64,000 nucleotides of DNA, taken from positions 1 to 64,000 of the forward strand of contig QHPX01000147.1 in the NCBI GenBank assembly GCA_003219195.1, written 5' to 3'. Position numbers and translations under genes: made by a program. Numbering within the stretch: the stretch's first letter is position 1; every line of letters starts with the position of its first letter. This document shows, one piece after another, positions 30,489 to 36,170 of the stretch. Under the pieces are notes generated by a model. That model searched no databases. It saw nothing but the letters and a program-made list of their open reading frames with translations, and had not been told where the DNA came from. This DNA is from Verrucomicrobiota bacterium (GTDB lineage: Bacteria; Verrucomicrobiota; Verrucomicrobiia; Chthoniobacterales; UBA10450).

Positions 30489-30532
30489 AAGATCGATATC
30501 TGTTAAGATCGACAATCGGCAAGATCGACATG
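30489..30532 (+). repeat. Triple array of the dispersed motif
   Basis: AAGATCGATATC (30489), exact AAGATCGACAAT (30505-30516) and AAGATCGACATG (30521-30532), each 16 bp apart, fill the hppA-to-next-gene spacer. The last copy provides the ATG (30530) of the following gene. Confidence 0.8.
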
Positions 30533-30922
30533 GCGGAGAATCGTGATTTCCAGATCGTCGCAACCGAGCAAACCGGCGCGAGAAAGCAAAGTCTCGCCAA
30601 GGCCGACCCGGCCGCGACGCCATTTAAAGTCGTGATCGATCCGAAATTGCGGCTCGATTTGCGGCGTGCGCTGATCGATCTGATCGATTATCACGACGAC
30701 GCGCTGGCGGAACATTTCGCCGAAGGCAAGCTCGCACTGGAATCTTACAAGGAATATATCGAGCTGTTTGCACGCAGCCTGAAGGAAACGATGGAAAGCC
30801 GCGAAGGCGTTTCTTATTTACTGCGTTCGGTTGGCTTCGACGTCTCTCCGGCGGAAATCAATTTGCAACCGGAACTGCGCTGGAGAAAAGGCCCTGGTGC
30901 CTTTGGTTCGAGCTTGCTTTAA
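30530..30922 (+). CDS. Hypothetical protein, helical
   Basis: 130 aa with no recognised domain. The middle is helical and charged (KLRLDLRRALIDLIDYHDDALAEHF, LALESYKEYIELFARSLKE). The end is Trp/Arg-Lys-containing (LQPELRWRKGPGAFGS). No signal peptide or membrane segment. The ATG lies at the end of the triple motif array and no Shine-Dalgarno is seen apart from it. It precedes the REC-MBL gene by 26 bp, so co-transcription is plausible. Function unknown. Confidence 0.6.
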   Translation: MAENRDFQIVATEQTGARKQSLAKADPAATPFKVVIDPKLRLDLRRALIDLIDYHDDALAEHFAEGKLALESYKEYIELFARSLKETMESREGVSYLLRSVGFDVSPAEINLQPELRWRKGPGAFGSSLL

Positions 30923-30948
30923 ATAAAGGCGCCAATCAGCCTGCACGC

Positions 30949-32274
30949 ATGCCTCGCGTCTTAATCATCGAAGACGATGCCGAAAGCCGGCGCGCGATCG
31001 CCGGTCTTTTCGTACGCGAAGATTGGAAGGTCCTGGAAGCGAATGACGGCGACGCCGGACTCGAGCTGGCGTTGCGCAATCGGCCGGAGCTTATCCTGTG
31101 TGATTTGTTGATGCCAAAATCGAATGGTTTTCAGGTTTGCCGCACTATCCGGGAGCAGCTTCAACCAACGAAGATCATCGTCGTGTCGGGCCGCGATTAT
31201 GGAGTCGATCGAACCAGTGCGCTCCAAGCCGGCGCCGACGAATATTTGCTTAAGCCGATAACGTGGGAACTGCTCTCCAGCACGATCGACCGACTTCTGC
31301 CCGAGATGCCGCGCCGTCCCAAACCAAAATCTGCGGCCGAAGGTGAGTCGATGCCTGCGCGAATAAGACTGTGGGGCGTTCGCGGTTCAATTCCGGTTCC
31401 CGGAAAGAACACAGTCCGTTATGGCGGAAACACTAGCTGCGTGGAGGTGCGCGCCGATGGCGAGATCATTATTCTCGATGCCGGCAGCGGCATTCGCCTG
31501 CTCGGTCTCGCTTTGGACAAAGAATTTGGACCTCGCTCGATGAAGTTGACTCTTTTGATTACACACACTCACTGGGACCATATCCAGGGCCTGCCTTTTT
31601 TTTCTCCCGCTTACAATCAGAAAAACCTCATCCGCGTTTTGGGTTATGAAGGAGCTCGCGCTGGTTTGGCAAAGATCCTGGCCAGCCAAATGGAGACCCC
31701 GTTTTTCCCGGTGAGCTTACGCGAACTCCCGAGCCACCTGGCAATTGAGGAACTGAAGGAGATGGAGTTTCAAATCGGAAACGTCGAGGTGCGCTCCAAG
31801 TTCGCTAATCATCCGGGCATTTGCGCGGGTTACCGTCTTTTCACAAGCTCGGGGTCAATCGCCTACTTTCCCGACAATGAACCTTATGAGCAGCTCAAGC
31901 TGCAATTGGCCTCGCGCGATGGAATCGGCGAGGACGAAGCGCGCGATTTCGCTACTGCCGAGCGCACAAAGATGGTCGAGTTTATTCAAGGCAGCGACCT
32001 GGCGATCCTGGATACACAATATACGGACGAGGAGTACACGCAGCATATCGGTTGGGGCCATAGCTCACTCAGCAGCGTTGTTTCGTTGGCGCTTGATGCA
32101 GATGTTCGCAAGCTCCTGCTTTTCCATCACGATCCGAATCATGACGACCAGATGATCGATAAAATGGTGGAACACGCGCGCGCGCTGGTGGCGAAGAGCG
32201 GGAAGCCATTGGAAGTCGAAGGCGCTCGCGAAGGCGCTGAGATCTTGCTCGGCGCGAAAACTCCAGCCGCGTAA
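30949..32274 (+). CDS. Response-regulator receiver domain fused to a metallo-beta-lactamase-fold hydrolase
   Basis: 441 aa. Residues 1-125 are a receiver domain with acidic pocket (IIEDD), phospho-acceptor Asp52 (ELILCDLLMP) and Lys102 (LLKPI). A linker (PRRPKPKSAAEGE) leads to an MBL-fold domain (about 135-430). It has LWGVRGSIPVPG, GGNTSCVEV, the metal motif THTHWDHIQG, FANHPGICAGYRL, DTQYTDEEY and FHHDPNHDD. This class of MBL proteins includes cAMP phosphodiesterase-like and RNase-Z-like enzymes. Phosphorylation could control the hydrolase. With two cNMP-binding proteins and a cyclase nearby, cNMP hydrolysis is an attractive but untested role. No partner kinase is adjacent. Confidence 0.88.
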   Translation: MPRVLIIEDDAESRRAIAGLFVREDWKVLEANDGDAGLELALRNRPELILCDLLMPKSNGFQVCRTIREQLQPTKIIVVSGRDYGVDRTSALQAGADEYLLKPITWELLSSTIDRLLPEMPRRPKPKSAAEGESMPARIRLWGVRGSIPVPGKNTVRYGGNTSCVEVRADGEIIILDAGSGIRLLGLALDKEFGPRSMKLTLLITHTHWDHIQGLPFFSPAYNQKNLIRVLGYEGARAGLAKILASQMETPFFPVSLRELPSHLAIEELKEMEFQIGNVEVRSKFANHPGICAGYRLFTSSGSIAYFPDNEPYEQLKLQLASRDGIGEDEARDFATAERTKMVEFIQGSDLAILDTQYTDEEYTQHIGWGHSSLSSVVSLALDADVRKLLLFHHDPNHDDQMIDKMVEHARALVAKSGKPLEVEGAREGAEILLGAKTPAA

Positions 32275-32341
32275 ATCGCGCCGCGAACGGAATTAGGCTA
32301 ACTTGTCGGCAGCGCAAATCGGTCTTAATTTTTTCGCTCAT

Positions 32342-32415
32342 TGCCTCGTGGTGTAATGGTAGCACCAGAGATTCTGGATCTCTTTGTCTAGGTTCGAGTC
32401 CTAGCGAGGCAGCCA
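32342..32415 (+). tRNA. tRNA-Gln (anticodon CTG)
   Basis: Complete 74-nt cloverleaf. The acceptor TGCCTCG pairs with CGAGGCA, and the anticodon stem AGAGA/TCTCT encloses loop TTCTGGA with anticodon CTG. The T-loop is TTCGAGT and the encoded end is GCCA. Its last 23 bases recur at 34870-34892, marking it as an integration site. Confidence 0.95.
32393..32415 (+). repeat. Attachment-site-like direct repeat (tRNA copy)
   Basis: The 3' 23 bp of tRNA-Gln (T arm to CCA), identical to 34870-34892. Recombination within tRNA 3' ends is the usual signature of tyrosine-integrase elements. This would be the attL-like copy, which restores the functional tRNA. Confidence 0.7.
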
Positions 32416-32538
32416 TACGTCGCGGATGAGCAGAAGTCCACTGCGTTCTCCAAGGATCTCCCGCGCCAGCGCGCTGTAGCCGACCATGCCGGTGAACATG
32501 ATCGCAGCGAGCTTGCGATGTTCGGTGTTGGCGCTCAT
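32412..32538 (-). pseudogene. Truncated N-terminus of a second adenylate/guanylate cyclase gene
   Basis: On the minus strand, ATG 32538 opens MSANTEHRKLAAIMFTGMVG then YSALA. This matches the full cyclase next door (TEHRKLAAIMFTDMVGYSALA), and a stretch of about 50 bp is almost identical. The essential metal-binding Asp of FTD is Gly here. Homology ends after about 25 residues, just before the tRNA repeat. The ATG overlaps the stop of the intact cyclase (ATGA), so two cyclase-TPR genes were once in tandem and the downstream one was cut off at the attachment site. Confidence 0.8.
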
Positions 32539-34511
32539 GGTTCGATCCCGATTTTTTTAAGCAACGCCGGGAATCGTGGGTCGGCACGCAAGCGGTCCAA
32601 ACCGGCAAAGATGCAGTATTCCCGGATCCACGCTACGCTAGCGTTTTCGTGTTCCAAGCCTTGCTCAAAACAAGCAAAGGCTTCATCGTGATTGCCTAAA
32701 CTTGCATGAACGAAGCCCAGATAAGCGGGCTGGACATACGTCCGCTTTCCGAGTTCGGCCAAATCTTCGAGAGCCCGTTGAGCTTCGGCCTTCCGATCCA
32801 ACCGACCCAGCAGGCATCCAAGATCGGCTAACTGAACAGGACCTCCTCCCAGCATGACTGCTTTGCGCAAGTCTGCGATGGCAGCTTCGCGCATTTCCTG
32901 ACCCCAATGAGCCAATCCCGAGATCCAATAGGTCCCAAAGAAGTTTGAGTCCAGATCAAATAATGTTTGGGCCTGTGCGAGCATCAGATCATAGCGGTGA
33001 ATGAACAAATAGGCCAATCCTGTGTGCATAACAATCATGGGGGATAAGGGATCGAGCTGTTGCGCCAAGCGCGCATGGGTTATGGCTTCGTCGGTCCGCC
33101 TCATGCATGCTAAGAAACCAGCGTAATGCTCGTGAGCGGTGACGTAGTTCGGGTTAAGCTTGATGGCTTGTTTGAAGCAGTCTTCAGCCCTTGACCAGTC
33201 CCTCACGTTCCAACATGTTACAATAGCTAAAGCAGTCTGAGTTTCAGCCAGGTTCGGATTGAGTTCTACCGCCTTTTCTGCGGCCTGATCGTGAGGACCG
33301 ATGGCAGCGAGCTTTTCTTCAAACGAGAGATAGCCATAGAACCAGGCGGTTTGATAACAGAGTGATAAAGCAGCATAAGCCAGCGCATAGCTGGGTTCGA
33401 TTTGGAGAGCTTTTTTGCAACATTCGATGCAGCGCTTGAAGCCCTCCCCGGTAAACTTATAAAAGTGATACTTGCCCTGGAGGTAAAGCTGGTAGGCGTC
33501 AGTGTTGTAAGTGCCGTGTTTCGGCAACGGTTGATCGCCTGCGCCAATCAGTTGCATCTCAAGGGCCTGCACAATTGCGCGCGTAATCTCATCCTGAATG
33601 GCAAAGACCTCCTGCATTTCGCGATCGAACGTTTGGGACCACAGATGATCGCCTTCAGCCACATTAATCAGTTGGGCCGTTATGCGCAGCCGGCTGCCAA
33701 CTTTGCGCACACTGCCCTCCAAAATCGTGTTCACATTCAGTTGCTGGCCGATCCGGCGGATATCCTCATTCCTCCCCTTGAACGCAAAGCTTGAAGTCCG
33801 GGCAGGCACGCGTAACCCCTTCAATCGTGAAAACGCCATTATCAGGTCTTCTGTCAGACCGTCGCTCAGATACTCGTTCTCCGGGTCTGAGCTCATACTT
33901 AGGAAAGGCAAGACGGCAATCGATTTCTGAGTCTCAGAAGATTTGTTGGCTCGCACGAGATCCGGTGGACCGGACGCTGCGCCCTCGTATCCAACCCAAT
34001 AAACCTCCAGAGGCCGCATCATATTCTTGAGTTTCACCTGCCCCATCCTTTTCGGCGAGTTGGCAAGGCGATTCTCCACCTGGTCGAAGACCTGCTGGGA
34101 AATACAAATGCCGCCCGCTCCGGCCAATGGTTCGATGCGAGCAGCAATGTTGACGCCATCGCCAATCACGTCGTCATCACGACGGACAACATCGCCCGCA
34201 TGAATTCCGATACGAACCTCGAATATCCCTTGCGGTGGATTGGCGGAATTTCTCTTTGCAATCATCTCTTGAATCTCAATCCCGCATTGCACTGCCGCCA
34301 AGGCGCTGGAAAATTCGACCAAGAAACCATCTCCAATTGTCTTGATTTCAGAGCCGTGATGTTTTGGAAAAACTGAGCGCAGGAGTCGGCGGTGTTCCTC
34401 GAGCAACTCAAGTGCGAACGCCTCGTTCCGTTGCGCGAGAGCGCTGTAGCCGACCATGTCCGTGAACATGATCGCGGCGAGCTTGCGATGTTCGGTGCCG
34501 TCTTGAGGCAT
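32535..34511 (-). CDS. Class III adenylate/guanylate cyclase with TPR sensor domain
   Basis: 658 aa. The N-terminal cyclase domain (about 8-180) has both metal-binding Asp residues, Asp18 (MFTDMVGYS) and Asp61 (TIGDGFLVEF), and GDGVNIAARIE near the active site. Residues about 195-330 match the TolB-N/FlgO-like module (IAVLPFLSMSSDPENEYLSDGL, ILEGSVRKVG). At least six TPR-like repeats follow (ALAYAALSLCYQ, AETQTALAIVTCW, YVTAHEHYAGFL). Such proteins make cAMP in response to unknown cues. It fills the tRNA-Gln island, contains none of the dispersed motif, and has lower GC than its neighbours by eye. Confidence 0.88.
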   Translation of the reverse strand: MPQDGTEHRKLAAIMFTDMVGYSALAQRNEAFALELLEEHRRLLRSVFPKHHGSEIKTIGDGFLVEFSSALAAVQCGIEIQEMIAKRNSANPPQGIFEVRIGIHAGDVVRRDDDVIGDGVNIAARIEPLAGAGGICISQQVFDQVENRLANSPKRMGQVKLKNMMRPLEVYWVGYEGAASGPPDLVRANKSSETQKSIAVLPFLSMSSDPENEYLSDGLTEDLIMAFSRLKGLRVPARTSSFAFKGRNEDIRRIGQQLNVNTILEGSVRKVGSRLRITAQLINVAEGDHLWSQTFDREMQEVFAIQDEITRAIVQALEMQLIGAGDQPLPKHGTYNTDAYQLYLQGKYHFYKFTGEGFKRCIECCKKALQIEPSYALAYAALSLCYQTAWFYGYLSFEEKLAAIGPHDQAAEKAVELNPNLAETQTALAIVTCWNVRDWSRAEDCFKQAIKLNPNYVTAHEHYAGFLACMRRTDEAITHARLAQQLDPLSPMIVMHTGLAYLFIHRYDLMLAQAQTLFDLDSNFFGTYWISGLAHWGQEMREAAIADLRKAVMLGGGPVQLADLGCLLGRLDRKAEAQRALEDLAELGKRTYVQPAYLGFVHASLGNHDEAFACFEQGLEHENASVAWIREYCIFAGLDRLRADPRFPALLKKIGIEP

Positions 34512-34904
34512 ATTGCAGAATGAACAGCCCAGGGGAATTCAGGGGCGACCTTGTCTACGAGCCTACCAGAAGGGAGTTTGCAAGGCAAAAGATTCTGAGG
34601 CAACGGGTTCGTTCTCGCTTGCTAACCGCGAGCCAAGATCCTAGCACCTTCATCTCATCTCGGCAGCCTATTAGAATGAGAGGCAAAACCCGGGCGACGG
34701 TTTAGTCGAGACAATTCACTCGAATCAATTCCGCGCTCTCTCGATGCTAATTGAAGCGCGTACTGCGGGCCGCAGAAGGTGAGCGCGCAGGACAAGGTGA
34801 GCAAACTTGCTCCGCGAATAGTCTTTAGCAATCAGTAAAGTTGCCGAACCCAACAAGCAGCCAGCTGTATTCGAGTCCTAGCGAGGCAGCCACTCAATCA
34901 GAGA
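34512..34904. other. 393-bp non-coding end of the tRNA-Gln island
   Basis: No gene is supportable on either strand. Short ORFs here lack family features. The stretch upstream of the cyclase must hold its promoter, but no consensus pair stands out. It ends with the 23-bp tRNA repeat (34870-34892). No integrase, transposase or dispersed motif was found. Confidence 0.6.
34870..34892 (+). repeat. Attachment-site-like direct repeat (distal copy)
   Basis: 23-bp copy identical to the 3' end of tRNA-Gln (32393-32415). It is not a tRNA by itself, because the D and anticodon arms are missing. It bounds a 2.48-kb insert. Confidence 0.75.
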
Positions 34905-35390
34905 TCAAAAGTCAGATTTCAGATTTCGCTTTTTTTGAAAAAAACTCTGCAGGATGGCCGCGCATTCATTTTGCAGAACACCCGGAGTGATCTCGCAGCG
35001 GTGGTTAAGCACTTGCGTTTGCAATAAATTCATCGTGCTGCCGGCTGCGCCGGCCTTGGGATCGGGACAGCCGAAGATGACACGCCGTATTCGCACGTGC
35101 ACAAGTGCTCCGGCGCACATGACGCACGGCTCCTTCGTAACGTAGAGATCACAGTCCACGAGCCGCCAGTCTCCGACGGCGGCTTCGGCTTGCGTTAACG
35201 CCAGCATCTCCGCGTGGGCCGTCGCGTCCTTTAACAGCTCAACCTGGTTGTAAGCGCGGGCGATTATTTTCCCCGCGCGCACAACTACAGCGCCAACCGG
35301 TACCTCATCGGCGCCGTATGCTTTCCAGGCCAGTCGCAAGGCTTCGCGCATGAAAGCCACGTCATCCTCGTTGTCGATGAAAGAATGCAT
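34905..35390 (-). CDS. tadA: tRNA-specific adenosine-34 deaminase
   Basis: Deaminates A34 of tRNA-Arg(ACG) to inosine. 161 aa from the ATG at 35390, chosen over an upstream in-frame start because the family begins with a short lead into FMREALRLA. Zinc and catalytic residues are intact: TAHAEMLAL (His, Glu) and KEPCVMCAGALVH (two Cys). VPVGAVVV and the GSTMNLLQTQVLNHRCE tail distinguish TadA from other CDA-fold deaminases. The 3' end is only 12 bp from the island's distal repeat. Confidence 0.93.
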   Translation of the reverse strand: MHSFIDNEDDVAFMREALRLAWKAYGADEVPVGAVVVRAGKIIARAYNQVELLKDATAHAEMLALTQAEAAVGDWRLVDCDLYVTKEPCVMCAGALVHVRIRRVIFGCPDPKAGAAGSTMNLLQTQVLNHRCEITPGVLQNECAAILQSFFQKKRNLKSDF

Positions 35391-35525
35391 TTTGATAATC
35401 GCAGCCGGCCGCCTTTTTTCTGCGTGATCGCCCAAGTTTTACGCAAATCTTAGTGAATGAGAAGTCTAGCAAACTCTTTCGCCCACACGTCCGTTCAGCG
35501 CAGGAAGAGCGAACGTAGTTGTACT

Positions 35526-36170
35526 ATGATGAAAAAATTATTTGCAATTCTCGCCATCGTTCCCCTTGCGCTCGCATCAGTTCGTGCCGCGACGGAACAG
35601 GAAATTGTCGATCATTCCGCCTCAATCATCCGTGAATTCAGAGCGCTGCCGGAGCATCAGATTCCGCGGAGCGTTCTACGTCACGCGCGCGGCCTTGCGG
35701 TGATGTCGGTCGTGAAAGCAGGCTTCATTTTTAGCGCCAAAGGTGGACACGGCGTGGTCGTGGCAAGAACAGGTCACGGCTGGTCTGGCCCGTCATTCGT
35801 CGGCACGGGCGGCGCTGGCTGGGGCTTGCAGATCGGCGCTGAGATGACCGATTTTGTCATCGTCCTCAATAACTGGGATGCGGTGCGTGCGTTCTCGCGC
35901 GGAGGGAATGTCACCATCGGCGCCGATGTAAGCGCAGCGGCTGGCCCGGTGGGTCGCGCCGCGGAGGCAGACGTCACTCCAACCGCGGCTATTTACACAT
36001 ACAGCCGGAGCAAAGGTCTGTTCGCCGGCATATCGCTGGAAGGCGCAGTCATTGGAACGCGAAAAGAGGCCAACGCGCGCTACTACGGCCGAGTTGTCAG
36101 TGCGAGCGATATTCTCCATGGTCGCGCCGCGCCGCCGGCAGGTGCAGGGCGATTGCGTTCCGCGCTCTGA
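35526..36170 (+). CDS. Secreted Ysc84/SYLF-domain lipid-binding protein
   Basis: 214 aa. A signal peptide (MMKKLFAILAIVPLALASVRA) is followed by one Ysc84/SYLF domain: IPRSVLRHARGLAVMSVVKAG, GWGLQIGAEMTDFVIVLN, NVTIGADVSAAAGPVGR and IYTYSRSKGLFAGISLEG. SYLF domains bind phosphoinositide or other anionic lipids; bacterial forms are periplasmic or outer-membrane-associated and their role is unclear. The start at 35526 begins the signal peptide; an upstream in-frame start is rejected. A hairpin at 36188-36208 follows. Confidence 0.85.
   Translation: MMKKLFAILAIVPLALASVRAATEQEIVDHSASIIREFRALPEHQIPRSVLRHARGLAVMSVVKAGFIFSAKGGHGVVVARTGHGWSGPSFVGTGGAGWGLQIGAEMTDFVIVLNNWDAVRAFSRGGNVTIGADVSAAAGPVGRAAEADVTPTAAIYTYSRSKGLFAGISLEGAVIGTRKEANARYYGRVVSASDILHGRAAPPAGAGRLRSAL

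Follow-up and report, generated by a model that had tools for sequence, protein, structure and literature searches.

The window, the whole 64,000-nucleotide stretch of DNA that was analysed, belongs to a Chthoniobacterales metagenome-assembled genome (MAG) near Candidatus Udaeobacter, represented by an 87%-complete draft in 183 contigs. The gene to the left of the locus described here has its closest named relative in the Chthoniobacterales MAG COA_Bin_6_3 (97% protein identity), and a Candidatus Udaeobacter MAG matches it at 76%. Next to it stands a tRNA-Gln(CTG) gene which encodes its own CCA (ARAGORN) and is the only one found in the host's draft genome, followed by about 2.5 kb enclosed by two copies of the tRNA end and carrying one intact gene, for a signalling enzyme (Table 1). 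The initial annotation had placed an adenylate cyclase-TPR gene, a cyclase stump and non-coding DNA between the two copies, and ORFs, Pfam matches and repeats bear this out. It had also reported no integrase there, and we agree: there is none among the ORFs, and integrase queries drawn from relatives at the tRNA-Gln site found neither an integrase nor a remnant of one in the interval.

Table 1. Features of the tRNA-Gln(CTG) locus, with positions in the window.
Feature	Position	Strand	Basis
Left flank, response-regulator/metallo-beta-lactamase-fold gene	30949-32274	+	Conserved left neighbour of tRNA-Gln in most relatives
tRNA-Gln(CTG), intact, target gene; 3' end forms attL	32342-32415	+	ARAGORN; Rfam tRNA, 60.3 bits
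attL core, 23 bp, T-loop to CCA end	32393-32415	+	Exact repeat
Second cyclase gene, truncated (stump)	32416-32538	-	Translation; 65-nt direct repeat with cyclase 5' end
Direct repeat copy 1 (stump)	32463-32527		92% identity, repeat D1
Class III adenylate cyclase-TPR protein, 658 aa, intact	32535-34511	-	ORF; Pfam; dN/dS 0.18-0.24
Direct repeat copy 2 (cyclase 5' end)	34433-34497		92% identity, repeat D1
Non-coding 5' region of cyclase, mostly common to G021	34512-34745		blastn 85% over window 32473-34731; alignment
Decayed 3' tail of Peptidase_S74-type coiled-coil gene, pseudogene remnant, ends ...VFSNQ*	34746-34838	+	Alignment to 20 dispersed copies plus L228
Inner flank of attR	34839-34869		Resembles DNA 3' of intact S74-type genes (L369, L377); also in G021
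attR core, 23-bp copy of tRNA-Gln 3' end	34870-34892	+	Exact repeat; same core bounds homologous G021 unit
Right flank, tadA (tRNA adenosine deaminase)	34905-35435	-	Adjoins tRNA-Gln in empty-site relatives

The product of the intact gene matches Guanylate_cyc (1.8e-17) and TPR in Pfam. The start of the stump overlaps the stop codon of this gene (ATGA), and its reading frame, when translated, continues into the tRNA end. By inspection of the translation, the first metal-binding Asp of the FTDMVGYS motif is also replaced by Gly, and the truncated cyclase appears to be dead. At the other end, the S74-like tail before attR aligns with the 3' ends of dispersed genes; Pfam was run on three relatives of this tail and gave Peptidase_S74 for two, both intact, and only a weak SlyX match for the third. 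Both inner ends of the island consist of gene debris abutting the att core, with no conserved arm sequences.

Two other roles for this DNA were considered and rejected. The dispersed 90-bp repeat beside attR is neither an att arm nor an RNA; it is the Peptidase_S74-related gene remnant described above, and Rfam returns only the tRNA when the island is searched for structured RNA. The cyclase is not accepted as a Pycsar defence gene, as its PycC match is weak (2.3e-6), no effector ORF lies between the att sites and its architecture is that of a cyclase-TPR protein.

The repeat that bounds the interval is the 23-mer TTCGAGTCCTAGCGAGGCAGCCA, exact at 32393-32415 and, as first reported for the tRNA 3' end, at 34870-34892. 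No further copy is present elsewhere in the window with three mismatches allowed, and shuffled sequences gave none. Between the tRNA and the 4 kb that follow it, the longest shared word measures 23 nucleotides, compared with a maximum of 13 in 300 Markov shuffles, and a chance repeat, which had been named as the finding that would undo the island, is excluded. Misassembly at a short repeat would be the other kind of artefact. The locus does come from a MAG assembly, its left junction, where the tRNA meets the stump, is known from this one assembly and from no second genome, and the contigs of several relatives break near tRNA-Gln, but the right junction is independently present up to the core in a genome of another genus (G021) and the flanks agree with synteny in relatives. 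With chance excluded as well, we regard an artefact of either kind as very improbable.

Comparison of the locus in relatives, proposed in the initial annotation as a check for an empty site, found several. The congener G001 has the left neighbour gene (95%), tRNA-Gln and tadA (91%) side by side, with 131 bp separating tRNA from tadA and no cyclase, and nine other family genomes have gaps of 14-127 bp. The opposite outcome, the same cyclase here in all relatives and no empty site, is thus ruled out. In the window, the attR end lies 12 bp from tadA, close to the empty-site spacing. The empty site of G001 does not, however, align with the window base for base, as some 112 bp of its tRNA-tadA spacer are absent from the window. 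In the near relative G003/COA_Bin_6_3 the contig stops inside tRNA-Gln.

Across the family, tRNA-Gln is followed by tadA on one stretch at 32 loci. Ten are empty (14-131 bp), 13 have larger gaps with no second tRNA end, and nine, from eight genomes (the window included and G073 counted twice), have at least one extra tRNA end between tRNA-Gln and tadA, the number rising to six in G063. Further copies of the tRNA-Gln end lie on contigs without the tRNA or tadA. As a control, tRNA-Trp gave no 3'-end-only copies among the matches listed, down to E ~1e-6 (some of the Gln copies are weaker). Taken together, the empty sites, the extra tRNA ends and the tRNA-Trp control identify tRNA-Gln(CTG) as a recurrent integration site, and the tRNA-Gln(CTG)-tadA interval is a family-wide hotspot. 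Defence-like genes stand at the hotspot in L160 (G044), L188 (G078), L153 (G073) and L172 (G080), the set consisting of REase-ARP, HNH, an SMC-like protein matching mads_3, Hypoth_ymh and PLD proteins. The idea that the cyclase is itself a recurrent cargo of the hotspot is unsupported: the sole cyclase among the clustered island genes is that of G013, which is 28% identical, and two of these genes encode TPR proteins for which no cyclase domain match is shown.

Orthologues of the cyclase (83-87%) occur in five other genomes, so that with its own genome six of the 83 family genomes have the gene; the frame is broken in G055 and split in G020. A dN/dS of 0.18-0.24 shows that the cyclase is under purifying selection. 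The homologous stretch in G021 (about 85%) spans stump, cyclase and cyclase 5' region, apart from an internal deletion, and ends at the att core; the cyclase, the S74 tail and the att core have the same order as in the window. The tRNA-Gln gene was not found in the G021 assembly. For the cyclase, dS is 0.45 against G021 and 0.28 against G056, whereas tadA and ysc84 are saturated against G021 and ysc84 reaches 2.3 against G056 (the tadA value for G056 was excluded as an aligned-frame artefact); against the congener both genes give 0.32-0.38. A cyclase dS of 0.28-0.45 beside saturated or near-saturated neighbour genes shows that the cyclase was transferred horizontally between genera. No tRNA-Gln core was detected near the other four orthologues, so this gene has other routes of spread as well.

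These four orthologues bear on whether the interval ever moved as a unit. The second tRNA end might be an old att scar, of a sort common at this site as the copies in G063 illustrate, and the cyclase segment might have arrived separately, by recombination involving the numerous genes of the cyclase and S74 types, since cyclase-like and S74-like sequences are both multicopy. We think this combined account quite unlikely, because the order of cyclase, S74 tail and att core in G021, with homology ending at the core, is better explained by one unit.

Integrases are found at the site in several relatives. Tyrosine integrases (Pfam, PF00589) lie about 100 bp inside an attR copy in G043 (L167:4339-5538) and G032 (L169:2748-3902), and 78 bp after tRNA-Gln in G049 (L231:4688-5863). 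Integrase remnants occur near tRNA-Gln or an att copy in G073, G044, G043, G006 and G082, and in G011 an ORF beside tRNA-Gln (L233:4256-5716) combines a trypsin-like domain with an integrase C-terminal portion. The island shares its core with the integrase-bearing elements of relatives and differs from them in the arms; the boundary sequences suggest that several types of element use the site with a common att core. No integrase or arm sequence ties the att sites of the window to a particular integrase family. A search of the host genome for a tyrosine integrase of matching specificity had been proposed as a further check, and the 87%-complete draft yielded none: its eight PF00589 matches are only distantly similar to the tRNA-Gln-site integrases. 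Five of the eight (L309-L313) share their stretch with a gene for another tRNA, namely tRNA-Arg, -Met, -Thr, -Gly and -Ala, as found by ARAGORN on the fetched stretches only, and these stretches contain no second copies of those tRNA ends. Carriage by phage was considered and rejected; the tRNA-end word is present in three viral contigs, but inside a tRNA-Gln(TTG) gene, and no viral relative of the cyclase was found.

The interval 32393-34892 is probably what decay has left of a genomic island at the tRNA-Gln(CTG) 3' end, in the family hotspot: a CIME-like residue that lacks an integrase. That an island is integrated at tRNA-Gln, the central claim of the initial annotation, is upheld by the empty sites, the recurrent tRNA-end islands, the integrases in relatives and the cross-genus unit ending at the core. 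In the mechanism we propose, the tyrosine integrase of a larger element would have recombined the 3' end of the tRNA with an attP in which the 23-bp core was present, rebuilding the tRNA as attL and leaving the displaced end as attR beside tadA. Deletions would have removed the integrase and most of the other genes, leaving one selected cargo gene (cyclase-TPR) and the ends of two others. The repeat would then have originated by tyrosine recombination and a larger island would have preceded the present residue, although no larger ancestral island was seen. Either the enzyme for its movement has disappeared from the island or it was never encoded there, and the island might still be mobilised by an incoming element of the same specificity.

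The initial annotation had offered two readings, the residue of a larger island or an element that moves in trans, and the first fits better. A non-autonomous mobile cassette, with the cyclase as cargo, functional attL and attR and an integrase supplied in trans by an element elsewhere in the cell or the population, would agree with the exact 23-bp cores, the matching unit of G021 with its identical right end, the purifying selection on the cargo and the circulation of tRNA-Gln-site integrases in the family; the end of the G003/COA_Bin_6_3 contig inside the tRNA could even reflect population polymorphism. It is nevertheless unlikely in our judgement, as the draft genome has no close homologue of the site's integrases among its eight distant tyrosine recombinases, five of them with other tRNAs, and as gene debris, not conserved arms, meets the core at both inner ends, which favours decay over a streamlined cassette. 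We are equally doubtful of the broader proposal that tRNA-Gln(CTG)-tadA is a shared docking site where cassettes with a single cargo gene and no integrase pass between genera through integrases acting in trans, with the cyclase island as one such cassette.

A decayed island of this sort belongs to an already known kind of element, the tRNA-associated, integrase-less island. CIMEs (cis-mobilizable elements) are remnants of ICEs or IMEs that keep attL and attR without mobility genes (PMC5704250). The window island likewise keeps a predicted attL and attR, with exact 23-bp cores, and has no integration or transfer genes, but no cognate ICE or IME with matching arms is known in the host and one intact gene is left. 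The ssrA islands of Dehalococcoides, which include integrase-less ones (PMC3146451), are similarly bounded by short copies of an RNA gene 3' end, have an integration module in some cases and not in others, and lie in a strain-variable region; here, in contrast, the target is tRNA-Gln(CTG), the integrases at the site are of the tyrosine (PF00589) and not the serine type, and the host is a member of the Chthoniobacterales. As in tRNA islands with tyrosine integrases, the tRNA 3' end serves as attB, the tRNA is rebuilt at attL and a partial copy stands at attR, and the more complete relatives have an integrase beside att. The window copy thus shows a 3'-end repeat bounding the insert, an empty site in relatives and horizontally acquired content, but, unlike such islands, encodes no integrase.

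The locus illustrates site-specific gene exchange among uncultured soil Chthoniobacterales close to Candidatus Udaeobacter, in a case for which both an empty site and a homologue in another genus are available. It also marks tRNA-Gln(CTG)-tadA as a hotspot across the family, and restriction-like genes and further genes of a defence-like kind are among its other occupants. A paper search on Udaeobacter and genomic islands turned up nothing on this subject, judging by title and abstract.

Composition contributed little to these conclusions. The word AAGATCGACAAT, described in the initial annotation as dispersed and missing from the island, is indeed both, with 30 matches at up to one mismatch across the window against 0.44 expected, 12 of them exact (occurrences include 7191, 23507, 28317 and 57078). 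Its absence was rejected as a marker of foreign DNA, since the word-free gap, from 30517 to 35603, extends well beyond the island and 31% of the 2.45-kb intervals in the window lack the word. The G+C content of the island is slightly below that of the flanks, and this slight AT-richness is not decisive as evidence of acquisition.

Units of about 90-112 bp were observed at tRNA-Gln in relatives and are absent from the window. Each has two hairpins (CCACGTAAAAG..CACGTGG and ACCGCGT..TTTTACGCGG) and terminates in a copy of the tRNA-Gln 3' end, and the units are sometimes in tandem, directly after tRNA-Gln or an att copy. They occur at L152 (G063:C69, 1387-3204), L153, L155, L161, L163, L166, L177, L178, L183 and L188. 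RNAalifold found no compensatory pairs in their outer stems, and the hairpin model R1 has matches in 46 of the 83 family genomes. Palindromes like CCGCGTGAGGCGAAGCCTTTTACGCGG lie near small GIY-YIG genes at L330, L332, L342 and L152:2657-2938 (PF01541 in Pfam for the genes at L152, L330 and L332), and model matches also lie near tRNA-Gln(TTG) in L329, L332 and L342.
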